Below are positions 2,418-9,881 of a stretch of DNA of 64,000 nt, one piece after another. The stretch is from the NCBI RefSeq assembly GCF_001514265.1, contig NZ_KQ948989.1, positions 753,610 to 817,609 of the forward strand, given 5' to 3'. Within the stretch, counting starts at the first letter, position 1. Each line of letters opens with the position of its first letter. The position numbers and the translations under genes are program-made. This stretch comes from Streptomyces resistomycificus (GTDB taxonomy: Bacteria > Actinomycetota > Actinomycetes > Streptomycetales > Streptomycetaceae). The notes beneath the pieces are model-generated. The model had not been told where the DNA came from, ran no database searches, and saw nothing but the letters and a program-made list of their open reading frames with translations.

Positions 2418-2444
2418 ACATTGGTGTAGATGACACCCACATTG
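2418..2444. promoter_or_regulatory. Probable promoter/operator block of the ALA-synthase operon
   Basis: An AT-richer patch holds a direct repeat ACATTG at 2418-2423 and 2439-2444 (21 bp apart, two helical turns) flanking a perfect inverted repeat GGTGT-N5-ACACC at 2423-2437. This fits a regulator-binding region. The LysR gene at the end of the operon is a natural candidate, but the assignment is inference. Confidence 0.4.
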
Positions 2445-2445
2445 T

Positions 2446-2510
2446 TGTACTGCTCGGGACAGAGAGCCTGTCGTCGCCCTCGGGGGCGGACGAGGACAGA
2501 GAGCAGTACA
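2446..2510 (+). promoter_or_regulatory. Structured 5' leader before the ALA-synthase start codon
   Basis: Perfect 10-bp arms TGTACTGCTC (2446-2455) and GAGCAGTACA (2501-2510) close a 45-nt interior that itself can fold (GCCC/GGGC and GTC/GAC pairings). The 11-mer GGACAGAGAGC occurs twice inside (2457-2467, 2494-2504). The closing arm ends 7 nt before the ATG at 2518, and no usual Shine-Dalgarno sequence is visible, so folding should affect initiation. It could also be read as a DNA operator. Confidence 0.5.
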
Positions 2511-2517
2511 CCACCGT

Positions 2518-3777
2518 ATGTACTCCATGTACGAGGAATACCTGACCGGCAAGCTGGAAGACCTCCGCGAGCGCGGTCAGTACCGGGAGTTCGTCGACAT
2601 CAACCGGCGGGCGGGAGCCTACCCGGAAGCCGTGCACCGCGGCGTCGACGGCCGCCCGAAGCCCGTGACCGTCTGGTGCAGCAACGACTACCTCGGTATG
2701 TCGCAGCACCCGGACGTCCTCACCGCGATGCACCGCGCGGTCGACGAGTACGGCGCCGGCTCCGGCGGATCCCGCAACATCGGCGGCACGCACGCCCATT
2801 ACGCCGCGCTGGAGGCCTCGCTGGCCGACTGGCACGGCAAGGAGGCCGCGCTGGTCTTCCCCACCGGATACGGCTCGAACGACGCCACCCTGCAGTGCCT
2901 GCTGCGCGTCCTGCCGGACCCCGTCATCGTCTCCGACGAACTGAACCACGCCTCGATCATCAACGGCATCCGCAGCACCCGCGCGGACCGGGCGATCTTC
3001 CGTCACAACGACGTCGAGCACCTGGAGAGGATCCTCGCCGAACAGCCCGCGGACCGGCCGAAGATCGTCGCCTTCGAGTCCGTGTACTCCATGGACGGCG
3101 ACATCGCCCCGATCCGGGAGATCGTCGAAGTCGCCCGCAGGCACAACGCGTTGACCTACCTCGACGAGGTGCACGCCATCGGCATGTACGGCCCGCGCGG
3201 CGCCGGCATCGCCGCCGGTCTGGGCGTCGCCGGCCAGGTCGACATCATCCAGGGCACCATGGCGAAGGCCATCGGCGTGATCGGCGGTTACATCACCGGC
3301 TCGGCCACGCTGGTCGACGCGGTCCGCAGCTTCGCCTCCGGCTTCATCTTCACCACCTCGCTGCCGCCCGCCGTGGTCGCCGCCTGCCACACCAGCGTGC
3401 AGCACCTGAAGTCCTCCGAGGCCGAGCGCGAGGCCCTGCACCGCAAGACAGCCCAGCTGCGCACCGCGCTGCGGTCCGCCGGCATCGAGGTCATGCCGTG
3501 CAGCGACACGCACGTCCTGCCGGTGCTGGTCGGCGACGCCGACCTGTGCAAGCGGTCGGCCGCACGGCTCCTGGAGGAGTACGGCGTCTACCTCCAGCCC
3601 ATCAACTCCCCGACCGTCCCGGTGGGAACCGAGCGCTTCCGCATCAACGTCACCCCGAACCACACCGACGAGGACATCACCCACCTCGTCCGCTCCCTCA
3701 CCGCGGTCTTCGCCGACTTCCACGAGGTCCCGCAGCCCCTGGCCTCCGAGGCGGCGTCCGTGGGGCGGGCCGCGTGA
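2518..3777 (+). CDS. 5-aminolevulinate synthase (alpha-oxoamine synthase family)
   Basis: PLP enzyme (419 aa) predicted to condense glycine with succinyl-CoA to 5-aminolevulinate. Full-length family match: VWCSNDYLGM near the N-terminus, GGSRNIGGTH with S85 where Rhodobacter ALAS has the succinate-contacting Thr83, and N87; DEVHAIGMYGPRG, and PLP lysine K250 in GTMAKAIGVIGGY. Streptomyces normally makes ALA from glutamyl-tRNA, so an ALAS here suggests secondary metabolism, as with the ALAS of C5N-unit clusters. Unlike those clusters, no acyl-CoA ligase or amide synthetase is adjacent. The GTG of the next gene overlaps the stop. Another acyl-CoA substrate is possible. A second in-frame ATG lies at 2527. 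Confidence 0.88.
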   Translation: MYSMYEEYLTGKLEDLRERGQYREFVDINRRAGAYPEAVHRGVDGRPKPVTVWCSNDYLGMSQHPDVLTAMHRAVDEYGAGSGGSRNIGGTHAHYAALEASLADWHGKEAALVFPTGYGSNDATLQCLLRVLPDPVIVSDELNHASIINGIRSTRADRAIFRHNDVEHLERILAEQPADRPKIVAFESVYSMDGDIAPIREIVEVARRHNALTYLDEVHAIGMYGPRGAGIAAGLGVAGQVDIIQGTMAKAIGVIGGYITGSATLVDAVRSFASGFIFTTSLPPAVVAACHTSVQHLKSSEAEREALHRKTAQLRTALRSAGIEVMPCSDTHVLPVLVGDADLCKRSAARLLEEYGVYLQPINSPTVPVGTERFRINVTPNHTDEDITHLVRSLTAVFADFHEVPQPLASEAASVGRAA

Positions 3778-4370
3778 GCGCCGCCGAGACCTCCACCCCG
3801 GTGGTCCGGGCCGCCGTACCGGAGGACGTCGACGAACTGATCCGGCTGCGCGCGCTGCTGCTGGAGGACCCGGCGTCCGCCGCGCCGTACGCCGCCGGCA
3901 CCCCGGAGCAGAGCGCCGCCTGGCGGGGCCGCTACCGCGCGTGGCTGGCCGACCGGCTCGGCACGGCGGCGGACGTGCGGGTCGCCGTCGTGCCCGGGCC
4001 CGGCCGGCTGCGGGCCTGCGCCACCGCCGTCGTCGACCAGCGGGCACCCTCGCCCGCCTGTCCGAGCGGCCGTGCCGGATGGCTCCAGTCAGTGGTGACC
4101 GACCCCCGCGACCGCGGCCGGGGACTGGGCGCCGCCGTCCTCGACGACCTGGCCCGATGGCTGCAGGGGCAGGGCGCGGACGAAATCGTCCTGCAGACCA
4201 CGCCCACCGCCACCGAGTTCTACCGCCACCGCGGATTCCGGCCCACCGGCGAGGACCTGCTGTTCAAGCCGCTGCCCGCACCCGACGCCGCGCGCCCCGC
4301 CGGTGCACCCGCCCCCGCCCCGCTCGACGCGCGGCCCGCACGCCACGCCCGGGAGGAAAGCCCCGTATGA
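3774..4370 (+). CDS. GNAT-family N-acyltransferase
   Basis: 198-aa GNAT protein; the acetyl-CoA pyrophosphate loop is seen as R114-G-R-G-L-G119 after SVVTDP, followed by the helix LDDLARWLQGQGADE and the FYRHRGFRPTGEDLLFKPL C-terminal strand typical of the fold. The last 30 residues are a Pro/Ala-rich tail. GTG start overlaps the ALAS stop by 4 bp and its own stop overlaps the next ATG, so the three genes are translationally coupled. Inferred role: acetylating an amine made in this operon, possibly ALA or a product of it, as tailoring or self-protection. Substrate unknown. Confidence 0.8.
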   Translation: MSAAETSTPVVRAAVPEDVDELIRLRALLLEDPASAAPYAAGTPEQSAAWRGRYRAWLADRLGTAADVRVAVVPGPGRLRACATAVVDQRAPSPACPSGRAGWLQSVVTDPRDRGRGLGAAVLDDLARWLQGQGADEIVLQTTPTATEFYRHRGFRPTGEDLLFKPLPAPDAARPAGAPAPAPLDARPARHAREESPV

Positions 4371-5473
4371 ACCAGCCACCCCCCACCGAACCCGGCACGC
4401 TGCGCGTCCTCGTCGCGGGCATGGGATACGCCGGGTCCCGCTTCCTGACCGCCCTGCGCAGCCTCTCCGGCGACCTGGAGATCGGCGCCCGCCTGGAGGT
4501 CGCCTACCACGCACGCCACCAGGGCCGGCAGGACATCCCGTACTTCGCGTCCCTGCGCACGGCCCTGGACGAGTTCGCCCCGGACCTGGTCGTCGTCGCC
4601 GTCACCGACTCGGCCCACGCCGAGATCCTCACCGGCCTCGACGGCTACCAGGGCTTCGTCATCGCCGAGAAACCCCTCACCTCCGCCCGCGACGACCTCG
4701 ACGCGGTCGCGGGCGCGCTGCGCGGGGCGTCCGGGTTCGCGCTGGACCTCGTCGAGCGCTACTCGGACGCCACGACCGCCCTCCAGCAGTACGTACGCCA
4801 CCACGGTCTGACGCTGGTGCGCGCCCACGCCACCTGGGGCAAGGACCGAATCAACGACCACCGGCCCACGGTCGGCGTGACCAGCGAGGTCATCCACTCC
4901 CTGGACCTGCTGCGTCAACTCGGCCCGGTGGGCGCCCAGCTGCGTGTCCAGGACGCGGTCGGCGTCTGCTCGGACTTCTCGATCTCGGGGCCCGACGTCC
5001 TGGACAGTGTCGCCCTCACCGCCCGCCTCGGCGACGCGGTGGTCAGCGCCTACAGCAGCTTCACCAACATCGTCCGGCAACGCACGATCGACTGCGCCTT
5101 CCGCGCCCCCGACGGCGGACTCGTCTACGCGAGCACGGAGTACGACACCCCCGTGTGGGACGCCGACCACCTGCGTGTCTGGAAGCGGGAGAACGGCACC
5201 GAGGTCACCCTGTGTGAGGTCGACACCCGTGGCCGGGAGGCACCGGCCGACCTGCGCGGCGTCGTCAAACTCCGCCGCCTGACCGCGGACGTCCTGCGGT
5301 ACGTGCACCGGCGGCAGGAACCCTTCGTGCCGTTCGCCGGGCTCGACGAGTCGCTGGAACTGCAGCGGCTGCTCAACAAGATCGAAGCGACGGCCCACGT
5401 CACCGGCCCCGCCCGCTACTTCCCGGACGGACGCGCGGTGATCGCCGAAGCAGACTGGGAGCGACTGGGATGA
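4367..5473 (+). CDS. Gfo/Idh/MocA-family NAD(P)-dependent oxidoreductase
   Basis: 368 aa. N-terminal Rossmann fold with G18-x-G20-x-x-G23 in VLVAGMGYAGSRF, then the family E101-K102-P103 motif, whose lysine takes part in catalysis. The C-terminal alpha/beta domain carries GVTSEVIHSLDLL, which places the expected His and Asp of the active site. The family oxidises or reduces sugars, sugar nucleotides, imines and related carbonyls. Position 3 of a coupled ALAS-GNAT-oxidoreductase-exporter string suggests it modifies an ALA-derived carbonyl or imine; that is inference. ATGA overlaps at both ends. Confidence 0.82.
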   Translation: MNQPPPTEPGTLRVLVAGMGYAGSRFLTALRSLSGDLEIGARLEVAYHARHQGRQDIPYFASLRTALDEFAPDLVVVAVTDSAHAEILTGLDGYQGFVIAEKPLTSARDDLDAVAGALRGASGFALDLVERYSDATTALQQYVRHHGLTLVRAHATWGKDRINDHRPTVGVTSEVIHSLDLLRQLGPVGAQLRVQDAVGVCSDFSISGPDVLDSVALTARLGDAVVSAYSSFTNIVRQRTIDCAFRAPDGGLVYASTEYDTPVWDADHLRVWKRENGTEVTLCEVDTRGREAPADLRGVVKLRRLTADVLRYVHRRQEPFVPFAGLDESLELQRLLNKIEATAHVTGPARYFPDGRAVIAEADWERLG

Positions 5474-6762
5474 CCACCTCACCCACCACCGGAACACCGA
5501 ACAGCGCCACCCCGGGGACCGGAACCCCGGCCCCCCGCCCGCACAGCGGACGCTTCGTCCTCCTCCTCGCCCTGGGCGCCTTCGCCCTCGGCCTCGACGC
5601 CTACGTCATGGCCGGACTGCTGCCGGACGTCGCGGGCGACCTGAACGTCACCGAGTCGTCCGCCGGGCAGATGGTCACCGTCTTCACCCTCTGCTACGCC
5701 CTGGCGGCGCCCTTCTTCGCGACCGCCCTGGCCGGCCGCCCGGCCAAGGTCGTACTCGCCGTCGCGCTGGCCGTGTTCACCCTCGGCAACGCGCTCACCG
5801 CCCTCGCCCCCGCGCTGCCCGTCCTGCTGCTCGCCCGCGCGCTGGCGGGCATCGGCGCCGGTGTCTACTCGCCGATGGCCGCCGCCACCGCGGCCGGCCT
5901 CGCCGGGCCGGAGCGCCGCGGGCGCAGTCTGGCCCTGGTCATGGGCGGCATGAGCATCGGTACCGTCGTCGGCGTGCCCATCGGCGTGCTGCTCGCCGAA
6001 CAGGTCGGCTGGCGCGGCACCCTGTGGCTGATCACCGGCCTCGGAGCGCTCGCCCTCGCCGGCATCGCCGCCCTCCTGCCGCGCACCGAGGCCGCCCCTC
6101 CGCCGCCGCTGCGCGAACGCGCCCGCATCCTCACCGACGGCCGCGTCGCCGGCATCGCCTTCGTGTCCCTGCTCGGGGGAGTGGCCAGCCTCGGCCTGTA
6201 CACGTACCTCGCGCCGGTCCTGGAAGACGCCGCGCACCTGGACCAGAACGTCTGGGCGCTGTGGGCGTGGGGCGCGGGCGGCGTCCTGGGCAGCCTCCTC
6301 GTCGGCCCGCTGGTGGACCGTACGAAGCGGCCGTTCACCGTCGTCGGGGCGGTACTGCTGCTGGTCGTCCTGGCGCACCTGGCACTGCCGACCGCCGCAC
6401 CCGCCGCCTGGGCGCTCGTCGTGCCGCTGGTCGTCTGGGGTGCCGCAGGCTGGGCCCTGCAGGTGCCGCAGCAGCACCAGTTGATCGCCGCTCAGCCCCG
6501 CCACTCCGCTGTGGCTGTGTCGTTGAACAGCTCCGCCGTCTACCTCGGCAGTGCCATCGGCTCCGCCCTCGGCGGCATGGTGCTGGCCGCAGGACTGCGG
6601 CCCGCGTCCCTGCCGTACTGCACGGCGGCCCTGGCGGCCCTGGGGCTGGTGCTGCATCTGACGGTCGTACGGCGCTTCAGCCGCCGCACCGTCGACGACG
6701 GAGACGAGACCGGTGTCACCACGCCCGCTGCCGCACCCCGTGCGAGTGCGGCCCGGAGGTGA
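5470..6762 (+). CDS. MFS exporter (DHA1-type drug/metabolite efflux)
   Basis: 430-aa membrane protein with about 12 hydrophobic segments and DHA1-like features: FALGLDAYVMAGLLPDVA in TM1, loop 2-3 ending ALAGRPAKV, and RALAGIGAGVYSPMAAA in TM4. N- and C-terminal tails are short and hydrophilic. It overlaps the preceding gene by ATGA, so it belongs to the same transcript and is the likely exporter of, or resistance determinant for, the operon's product. Relatives include chloramphenicol and arabinose efflux pumps; substrate cannot be told. Confidence 0.85.
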   Translation: MTTSPTTGTPNSATPGTGTPAPRPHSGRFVLLLALGAFALGLDAYVMAGLLPDVAGDLNVTESSAGQMVTVFTLCYALAAPFFATALAGRPAKVVLAVALAVFTLGNALTALAPALPVLLLARALAGIGAGVYSPMAAATAAGLAGPERRGRSLALVMGGMSIGTVVGVPIGVLLAEQVGWRGTLWLITGLGALALAGIAALLPRTEAAPPPPLRERARILTDGRVAGIAFVSLLGGVASLGLYTYLAPVLEDAAHLDQNVWALWAWGAGGVLGSLLVGPLVDRTKRPFTVVGAVLLLVVLAHLALPTAAPAAWALVVPLVVWGAAGWALQVPQQHQLIAAQPRHSAVAVSLNSSAVYLGSAIGSALGGMVLAAGLRPASLPYCTAALAALGLVLHLTVVRRFSRRTVDDGDETGVTTPAAAPRASAARR

Positions 6763-6777
6763 ACTAACCTGACCAAT

Positions 6778-7680
6778 ATGGACATCGGCATACACCACCT
6801 GCGGTGCTTTCTCACGCTCGCCGAGGAACAGCACTTCACTTGGGCCGCCGACCGGCTCGGTGTCTCCCAGCCCACCCTCAGCCGCCAGATCCGGCGCCTG
6901 GAGGAGGCGCTGGGCCGGTCGCTGCTGGACCGCAGCACCCGCCACCCGCAGCTCACCGCGGAGGGACTGCGCCTCCAGGCCGAGCTCAAGGTGCTGCTGC
7001 CCCGGCTGGAGGCGGCACTCCGGCCGCCGGCCACCGACCGGCCGCTGCGGCTCGGCTACAGCTGGGGGTTCCCGATGCGGCGCGGCCGCCGGGCCGTCGA
7101 GCTGATGGAGCAGGAGCACCAGGTGCTGGTGGAGCTGGTCCGCCGCGACGACCCGACCGCGGGACTCGCCGACGGCTCGGTGGACGCCGCCCTGCTGTGG
7201 GGCCGCGTCGACGACCCGCGGTACACCGCGGTGGAGGTGCTGCGGGAGGAGCGGGTGGCGGCGATCTCGCACCGCTCCACGCTCGCCGTACGGGACTCGG
7301 TGACCTGGGGCGATCTGGGCCGCCGCTGCCTCGTACTGAACACGGTGAGCGGCACCCTCACGCCGGACGACTGGCCGACCGGGGCCCGGCCGGAGATCGG
7401 CGCGGAGGCCGCCAACCTCGACGAGTACCTGCACGCCGTCGCCGCCCGCCGCGGCGTCGGCGCGCTGCCCGCCTCGGTCGCGGCCGGACACCCCGACCCC
7501 GACGTCCGCTACCTCCCGGTGGCCGGTGCCCCACCCGCGGTCCTCTCCTACGTCCGTCCCCGCACCAACCCGCATCCGCACGCCGAACAGCTGGCGACCG
7601 TGCTGACCGAGGATGCCGCGCAGGACAGGCCGCGGGGCCGGAGCGCCGCGACGACACCGAGGACGACGCCGGCCTGCTGA
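6778..7680 (+). CDS. LysR-family transcriptional regulator
   Basis: 300 aa. N-terminal winged HTH (residues 1-60; HLRCFLTLAEEQHFTWAADR and SQPTLSRQIRRLEEALG), followed by a substrate-binding domain (about 85-265). Lies 15 bp after the exporter on the same strand, so it is probably the last gene of the operon rather than divergent from it, which is less usual for LysR. Probably the pathway-specific regulator; its co-inducer could be the operon's product. Candidate binding sites are the repeats at 2418-2444. Confidence 0.85.
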   Translation: MDIGIHHLRCFLTLAEEQHFTWAADRLGVSQPTLSRQIRRLEEALGRSLLDRSTRHPQLTAEGLRLQAELKVLLPRLEAALRPPATDRPLRLGYSWGFPMRRGRRAVELMEQEHQVLVELVRRDDPTAGLADGSVDAALLWGRVDDPRYTAVEVLREERVAAISHRSTLAVRDSVTWGDLGRRCLVLNTVSGTLTPDDWPTGARPEIGAEAANLDEYLHAVAARRGVGALPASVAAGHPDPDVRYLPVAGAPPAVLSYVRPRTNPHPHAEQLATVLTEDAAQDRPRGRSAATTPRTTPAC

Positions 7681-7821: not shown

Positions 7822-9342
7822 ATGGCAGACTCCGCAGACACGACGGACCGCACCGGTACAACCGGCGGCAGCCCCGCAGGCCGGCAGCTCCAGGTGGAGA
7901 CGCACGGTCTCGACGTGATCGGCGACGCCGACCGCAAGGGCACACCACGCACGCTGTTCTGGCCCTGGTTCGGCGCCAACGTCTCCGTCCTCGGGCTGAG
8001 TTACGGCGCCTTCGTGCTGGGCTTCGGCATCTCCTTCTGGCAGGCACTGGTCGCCGGAGTCATCGGCATCGTCTTCTCGTTCCTGCTGTGCGGCTTCGTC
8101 GGCGTCGCCGGCAAGCGCGGCTCCGCGCCGACCATGGTCCTCAGCCGCGCCGCGTACGGCGTGCGCGGCAACCGGCTGCCGTCGGTGGTCTCCTGGATGC
8201 TCACCGTCGGCTGGGAGACGGTCCTGTGCTCCCTCGCCACCTTGGCCACCGCGACCGTCTTCGACCGGCTCGGCTGGGGTGGCGGCACCGGGACCAAGGT
8301 CGTCGCCCTGGTCCTGGTCGGCGCGCTGACCGTCGTAGGCGGCGTGATGGGCTTCGACGTGATCATGCGCCTGCAGACCGTCATCACCGTGGTCACCGGT
8401 GTGCTCACGCTCGTCTACGTCGTGCTCGTCGCCGACCACGTCCACTGGAGCACCGTCAGCGCCGTACCGGCGGGCTCCGCACAGGAGTTCATCGGCGCGC
8501 TGGTGTTCATGATGACCGGCTTCGGGCTCGGCTGGGTCAACGCCGCCGCCGACTACTCCCGCTATCTGCCCCGCAGTTCGTCGAGCCGGGGCGTGGTCGG
8601 CTGGACCACCTTCGGCGCGTCCGTGGCGCCGCTGCTCCTGCTGGTCTTCGGCCTGCTGCTGGCCGGCTCCTCGGCCGGCCTCGAGACGGCCGTCGCCGCC
8701 GACCCGATCGGCGCGCTGACGACGATCCTGCCCACCTGGTTCCTGGTCCCCTTCGCCGTGGTCGCGGTGCTCGGCCTGGTCGGCGGCGCGGTCCTCGACA
8801 TCTACTCCTCCGGCCTCGCCCTGCTCTCCGCGGGCCTTCGGGTGCCCCGCTACCTGGCCGCCCTCGTGGACGGCGTCCTGATGATCGCGGGCTCGGTCTA
8901 CATCGTCTTCGTCGCGGACGACTTCCTCGGCCAGTTCATGGGCTTCCTGACCACGCTCGGCGTGCCCATCGCCGCATGGTGCGGGGTCATGCTCGCCGAC
9001 CTGCTGCTGCGCCGCCGCGACTACGACGAGGGGGACCTCTACCGGCCCGGGGGCCGCTACGGCGATCTCCCGGCCACCCCGCTGCTGCTCACCCTCGCCG
9101 CCACCGCCGCGGGCTGGGGCCTGGTCACCAACTCGGCCGCGAACTGGCTGGAGTGGCAGGGCTACCTGCTCGGCCCCCTGGGCCTGGGCGGCAGGTCCGG
9201 TTCCTGGGCGTACGCCAACCTCGGTGTCCTCATCGCCCTCGCGACCGGTTTCCTCGGCACCCTGGCGTTGGGACGCGGCCGCGTCCGTGCGCAGGAGGGA
9301 GCGCCGCCGAGTCCCGGCGCGGACGCGGGGACGATCGCGTGA
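7822..9342 (+). CDS. NCS1-family nucleobase:cation symporter
   Basis: 506-aa membrane protein with about 12 TM segments. The NCS1 signature FWPWFGANVSVLGLSYG lies in TM1, and a later segment reads WVNAAADYSRYLPR, as in cytosine/purine permeases. It should import a purine, pyrimidine, hydantoin or similar base. ATG 7822 has GGCAGGCGG upstream. It overlaps (GTGA) the downstream cysteine hydrolase, suggesting uptake and breakdown of one nitrogen compound. Confidence 0.85.
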   Translation: MADSADTTDRTGTTGGSPAGRQLQVETHGLDVIGDADRKGTPRTLFWPWFGANVSVLGLSYGAFVLGFGISFWQALVAGVIGIVFSFLLCGFVGVAGKRGSAPTMVLSRAAYGVRGNRLPSVVSWMLTVGWETVLCSLATLATATVFDRLGWGGGTGTKVVALVLVGALTVVGGVMGFDVIMRLQTVITVVTGVLTLVYVVLVADHVHWSTVSAVPAGSAQEFIGALVFMMTGFGLGWVNAAADYSRYLPRSSSSRGVVGWTTFGASVAPLLLLVFGLLLAGSSAGLETAVAADPIGALTTILPTWFLVPFAVVAVLGLVGGAVLDIYSSGLALLSAGLRVPRYLAALVDGVLMIAGSVYIVFVADDFLGQFMGFLTTLGVPIAAWCGVMLADLLLRRRDYDEGDLYRPGGRYGDLPATPLLLTLAATAAGWGLVTNSAANWLEWQGYLLGPLGLGGRSGSWAYANLGVLIALATGFLGTLALGRGRVRAQEGAPPSPGADAGTIA

Positions 9343-9881
9343 CCGCGGGCCTGCTCGCCGTCATCGACATGCAGCAGGTCTTCGCCGACCCCGGCAGTCC
9401 GTGGGCGGCCCCCCGCTTCGAGCAGGCGGCGCAGGGCGTACGACGGCTGCTGCCGGCGTTCGGGGACCGCGTCACCTTCACCCGCTTCCTGGCCCCCGAC
9501 GAGCCCACCGGCGCGTGGCGGGCCTACTACGAACGGTGGCCCTTCGCGCTGCGACCGCCCGACGCCCCGCTGTGGCGGCTGGCCGACGAGTTCGCCGCCC
9601 GGGCCGAGCAGGTGCTGGACGCCCCCACCTTCGGCAAGTGGACCCCCGAGCTCGCCGCCCGCACCCTCCCCGAAGGGCGCCTGGTCCTGGCCGGGGTCAG
9701 CACCGACTGCTGCGTCCTGTCCACCGCGCTGGCCGCGGCCGACGCCGGAGTGGAGGTCCTCGTGGCGGCCGACGCGTGCGCGGGCGCCGACGACACCTCG
9801 CACGCCCAGGCCCTCTCGTTGATGGACCTCTACCGTCCGCTCATCCGGGTGGTCACCGTCGAGGAACTGACCCGCGGCTGA
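9339..9881 (+). CDS. Isochorismatase-like cysteine hydrolase
   Basis: 180 aa. The cysteine hydrolase triad is visible: Asp in LAVIDMQQ, Lys in FGKWTPEL and Cys in GVSTDCCVLSTA. Members cleave amide or ureido bonds (nicotinamide, N-carbamoylsarcosine, ureidoacrylate) or isochorismate. Coupling by GTGA overlap to an NCS1 base permease favours amidohydrolysis of a base-derived compound over isochorismate cleavage, and no siderophore genes are next to it. Substrate unknown. Confidence 0.82.
   Translation: MTAGLLAVIDMQQVFADPGSPWAAPRFEQAAQGVRRLLPAFGDRVTFTRFLAPDEPTGAWRAYYERWPFALRPPDAPLWRLADEFAARAEQVLDAPTFGKWTPELAARTLPEGRLVLAGVSTDCCVLSTALAAADAGVEVLVAADACAGADDTSHAQALSLMDLYRPLIRVVTVEELTRG

Follow-up and report, generated by a model that had tools for sequence, protein, structure and literature searches.

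The five-gene operon at positions 2518-7680 of the 64,000-nucleotide stretch of Streptomyces resistomycificus DNA analyzed here (hereafter, the window) very likely directs the synthesis and export of alaremycin or of a very close analogue, judging from its predicted proteins and their counterparts in an alaremycin producer. That is, we very probably have another strain with an alaremycin operon, a type already described, and the pathway itself is not new. The sequence-only reading of the same DNA had taken the operon for an uncharacterised unit whose pathway matched none known; this part has to be given up, since Streptomyces sp. A012304, which produces alaremycin, has a matching operon. S. 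resistomycificus is therefore a further probable producer of an inhibitor of heme synthesis. What is new, as far as the literature searched under these names goes, is the wide mobile distribution of the gene set and its amide sub-type.

The operon and its counterpart in the producer

The five genes lie head to tail on the forward strand, all in frames without internal stops:

2518-3777, + strand: ALAS-type alpha-oxoamine synthase (AlmA-like); TIGR01821, 557 bits vs. a cut-off of 338.55; Ser85 corresponds to position 83 of the R. capsulatus ALAS; PLP lysine Lys250; 82% identity to, and in a clade with, the A012304 enzyme
3774-4370, + strand: GNAT N-acetyltransferase (AlmB-like), GTG start; PF00583; 61% identity to the A012304 gene product
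4367-5473, + strand: Gfo/Idh/MocA-fold enzyme (AlmC-like), proposed dehydratase; PF01408; 71% identity to the A012304 gene product; structure model with pLDDT 88 and a Gfo/Idh fold
5470-6762, + strand: MFS exporter (AlmE-like), with predicted product export and probable self-protection; PF07690 (MFS_1); 77% identity to the A012304 gene product
6778-7680, + strand: LysR-type regulator of the operon; PF00126 and PF03466; 73% identity to the A012304 gene product

The ALAS was called by its TIGR01821 score, and the GNAT, Gfo/Idh, MFS_1 and LysR proteins by Pfam. Three 4-bp overlaps (GTGA or ATGA) couple the first four genes, and 15 nt separate the MFS stop from the LysR gene, in agreement with the earlier description of five same-strand, overlapping genes ending in a LysR regulator; the ALAS ATG sits 100 bases downstream of position 2418, where that description began. 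Third-position GC is 0.91-0.95 across the five genes, and none of them contains a TTA codon of the kind associated with bldA control. The upstream flank (359-2035) is occupied by the gene for a GH5 cellulase that includes fibronectin III and CBM2 domains, which is also the neighbor in the closest relative, locus L041 (87% identity), and the downstream flank by an NCS1-type nucleobase transporter gene (7822 to 9342), the end of which is overlapped by an isochorismatase-family gene (PF00857; ending at 9881). More than 40 loci from several phyla contain this gene set, and the association of the five genes is, on comparative grounds, not due to chance. It is a true operon and very probably a functional one.

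Streptomyces sp. A012304 (locus L042), among the nearest relatives of the window, carries all five genes, their order and strand unchanged, with 61-82% protein identity, an ALAS of the same clade and the same Ser at position 83; the strain and the flanking genes differ. The features that we take to mark the alaremycin (alm) operon type, i.e., ALAS, N-acetyltransferase, Gfo/Idh and MFS proteins homologous to those of the producer, Ser at position 83 as the sign of a substrate amino acid different from glycine, and an ALAS within the producer's clade, are all found in the window. In the A012304 genome, no match apart from the operon ALAS exceeds the ALAS cut-off; two more genes matched, both with scores far below it. 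Okui et al. 2025, as cited in PMC12670364 and PMC13402209, give A012304 in their title as the strain that produces alaremycin. We connect the A012304 operon to alaremycin through the strain name, this uniqueness of the gene, the chemistry outlined below and the reported almA, almB, almC and almE assignments.

Proposed pathway and the readings it competes with

In those assignments, made by Okui and colleagues in 2025, AlmA is reportedly an ALAS-like enzyme acting on L-serine and succinyl-CoA, AlmB an N-acetyltransferase, AlmC the enzyme of a dehydration and AlmE an exporter. The pathway that we infer for S. resistomycificus, in part from these assignments, would start with the ALAS-like enzyme joining L-serine and succinyl-CoA to form 5-amino-6-hydroxy-4-oxohexanoate, which the GNAT enzyme would N-acetylate and from which the Gfo/Idh-fold enzyme would then take out water across C5-C6 to yield 5-acetamido-4-oxo-5-hexenoic acid (alaremycin). 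The MFS protein would export the product and, we propose, thereby protect the producer. Alaremycin is a known antibiotic that resembles ALA and blocks porphobilinogen synthase, and hence heme synthesis, in competitors; according to PMC12670364, it displaces ALA in the active site of that enzyme.

The first step draws on the active site of the ALAS, for which we number residues by the R. capsulatus enzyme (positions 83, 149 and 365 are Ser85, Ile151 and Thr366 of the window protein). The window enzyme and every other operon ALAS examined have Ser at position 83, where the three heme ALASs used for comparison have Thr. Thr83 directs the amino acid specificity of ALAS (PMC4525017), and serine palmitoyltransferase and AONS also have Ser at this place (PMC11906848). 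Since Ser at 83 is thus shared with relatives that use L-serine or L-alanine, the window enzyme probably makes a serine-derived ALA analogue and not ALA itself; that is, its amino acid is probably L-serine rather than glycine. Ser83 alone cannot tell serine use from C5N cyclisation, the marks of cyclising ALASs being T83S, I149L/V and T365S (PMC4525017). The window enzyme keeps Ile149 and Thr365; in seven Streptomyces ALASs these residues are Leu and Ser, respectively. In the tree, the ALASs of the window, A012304, Bacillota and the Pseudomonas-type loci form one clade of 17 rows (support 100/100), including a Streptomyces subclade of six rows (93/85), while the heme ALASs, the Leu149/Ser365 ALASs and those of actinomycete operons in which the ALAS gene is divergent fall outside. 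Active-site residues and tree taken together favor an enzyme that uses serine and does not cyclise as the best reading of the window ALAS.

The Gfo/Idh-fold enzyme has no match among curated NCBIfam models and only weak sequence matches in the PDB. Nonetheless, the lysine of its EKP motif (Lys102) is invariant among 24 aligned relatives, as is a block of the form W-G-K-D-R...N-D...R...T.G...S-E..H..D; this conservation suggests an active enzyme with a family of its own. Dehydration would be unusual for a Gfo/Idh fold, which normally serves redox chemistry; however, the C5 proton of the N-acetylated beta-hydroxy ketone is acidic, so that no net redox change is needed. The sequence-only reading had this enzyme alter the acylated product; the reaction is most likely a dehydration. 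We also considered an opine or metallophore pathway, given the pairing of Gfo/Idh and MFS genes, and rejected it: in the Pseudomonas loci, the extra gene encodes an asparagine synthase rather than a TonB receptor, and the operon matches that of the alaremycin producer.

The redox character of most Gfo/Idh proteins, which are mainly NAD(P) oxidoreductases, bears on an alternative to alaremycin itself, namely a relative built from L-alanine (dihydroalaremycin) or glycine (N-acetyl-ALA), with the Gfo/Idh enzyme serving as a reductase or dehydrogenase. Ser at 83 would suit alanine as well as serine, given that AONS, an alanine-using enzyme, has Ser at this position, and an alaremycin derivative appears in the title of Okui et al. 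(PMC12670364). We consider this alternative improbable, though, because the window has its whole gene set in common with the alaremycin producer and identity is high for each of the proteins.

Two further readings are, in our view, less probable still. If the ALAS supplied a C5N (2-amino-3-hydroxycyclopent-2-enone) unit assembled at another place in the genome, as in the asukamycin/manumycin type of cluster, the shared ALAS family and the T83S change, which marks cyclising ALASs too (PMC4525017), would be explained. The other two marks are absent, however (Ile151 and Thr366), no amide synthetase or acyl-CoA ligase gene of the C5N type is found in the operon or adjoining it, as the sequence-only reading had already remarked for both enzymes, and the comparison with C5N ALASs that it had proposed sets the window apart from the Streptomyces ALASs bearing both 149L and 365S. 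Nor is the ALAS likely to be a heme-supply gene gained by transfer next to unrelated neighbors, even though TIGR01821 recognizes it as a true ALAS and its catalytic residues are kept. A heme-type ALAS would be expected to have Thr83 and to be the only source of ALA; here Thr83 is lost, the neighbors are conserved with the ALAS across phyla, and a glutamyl-tRNA reductase (GluTR) gene is present elsewhere in the genome. The latter means that the ALAS is not needed for heme, in line with the earlier view that heme ALA comes from the glutamyl-tRNA route. A dedicated operon for the biosynthesis and export of a small molecule, apart from both heme synthesis and the C5N clusters, was in this respect correctly anticipated.

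The GluTR gene and the single porphobilinogen synthase gene are close together on another contig. A second porphobilinogen synthase was considered as a means of self-resistance and rejected, since there is one PF00490 gene here and one in 10 of the 11 other cluster-bearing genomes, the second match in the eleventh being weak.

Distribution, plasmids and the amidotransferase-bearing sub-type

When genomes were scanned at one per species, the Gfo/Idh protein matched at 44 loci, against which the window proteins were then run by tblastn. ALAS, GNAT and Gfo/Idh genes, usually with MFS and LysR genes, occur together in Streptomyces, Kitasatospora, Marinactinospora, Bacillus and Paenibacillus, as well as in Pseudomonas, Stutzerimonas, Halomonadaceae, Brenneria and others. 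The gene set thus recurs in Actinomycetota, Bacillota and Pseudomonadota, plasmids included, and the gene order, which the sequence-only reading had singled out for checking in other genomes, is conserved. Neither outcome that this reading had named as speaking against it, a genome lacking the glutamyl-tRNA route or a gene order without counterparts among relatives, was thus obtained. Within Streptomyces the operon is rare: a strong Gfo/Idh match is found in 8/393 genomes, only four of which have the full set. Based on these data, we lean towards the view that the operon is a member of a mobile, cross-phylum antibiotic cassette, with one lineage using an added asparagine-synthase-like enzyme to make the (primocarcin-like) amide of alaremycin, complete copies on plasmids including a mobilisable 9.3-kb plasmid of Staphylococcus capitis, and immunity remnants consisting of exporter and regulator alone in some Streptomyces.

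The plasmid-borne sets are those of Parageobacillus thermoglucosidasius (pGEOTH01), Rahnella aquatilis and S. capitis. The plasmid of S. capitis DSM 20326 (L138, 1-9275) carries a complete but distant set of ALAS (with Ser83), GNAT, Gfo/Idh, MFS and LysR genes, with 56% (ALAS) and 31% (Gfo/Idh) identity to the window; its MFS gene runs across the start of the record. Two Pseudomonas-type operons (L083, 4917-8110; L053, 3533-8143) have a divergent MmyB-like regulator and lie beside a DUF3363/relaxase-like gene, accompanied in L053 by a ParA-like gene, and are probably on a mobile element. A cyanobacterial locus (L055), whose XRE and AsnB proteins are 84-90% identical to those of Pseudomonas, may represent contamination of a MAG. 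Petrickova et al. 2015 describe "blue branch" hemA loci of Streptomyces whose ALAS, like that of the window, is non-cyclising, and similar loci in Chromobacterium and Geobacillus thermoglucosidasius; the loci are given no product there and a role in secondary metabolism is called speculative (PMC4525017). As pGEOTH01 of Parageobacillus carries the window gene set, these loci and the window operon probably belong to the same family.

In two Streptomyces genomes, G165 (L127, 6349-9389) and G246 (L130, 8078-10699), most of the ALAS, GNAT and Gfo/Idh genes has been removed by different internal deletions, while the MFS and LysR frames are still open. These two cases are possible immunity remnants and would fit an exporter kept for protection, although their number is small. 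Separately, locus L125 (7443-8690; genome G019) has an ALAS-like gene beside GNAT and LysR genes and without a Gfo/Idh gene; its product has lost the PLP lysine (K248M) and shows other active-site changes, and is therefore not a normal ALAS.

Some actinomycete loci and the Pseudomonas-type loci have an additional, asparagine-synthase-like gene, which follows the Gfo/Idh gene in the latter (L083, L053, L057 and L078) and in L046, L047, L049 and L126. The added amidotransferase would turn the carboxylate into an amide, so that a primocarcin-like product is predicted; the amide of alaremycin is primocarcin, an old Nocardia product, on which the literature searched yielded nothing useful. This sub-type offers a testable biosynthetic proposal for primocarcin-like amides. 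Such an amidotransferase is absent from the window operon, and its best match in the genome reaches 37%; in the absence of a close relative, the free acid is expected here.

The alaremycin gene set is a compact cassette of Streptomyces, Bacillota, Pseudomonadota and plasmids, and its spread implies that an ALAS annotated as "hemA" in bacteria with the glutamyl-tRNA route can be an antibiotic gene. Ser at position 83 together with an adjacent pair of GNAT and Gfo/Idh genes provides a simple rule for its recognition.

Upstream region

Two features precede or lead into the ALAS gene, the expression of which, with that of the rest of the operon, would be regulated by the LysR protein:

2443-2455 and 2501-2513 (span 2443-2513), + strand: leader with a 13-nt inverted repeat and a 45-nt spacer
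2387-2401, no strand: palindrome ATGCAGC-c-GCTGCAT (ATGCAGCcGCTGCAT), candidate LysR operator

The leader repeat is largely kept in L041 and was not found in L042 or L043. The palindrome occurs nowhere else in the window, its own reverse complement aside, and an ATGCA-like dyad is present at the corresponding place upstream of the ALAS gene in the other five Streptomyces loci aligned; it may serve as the operator for the LysR regulator.
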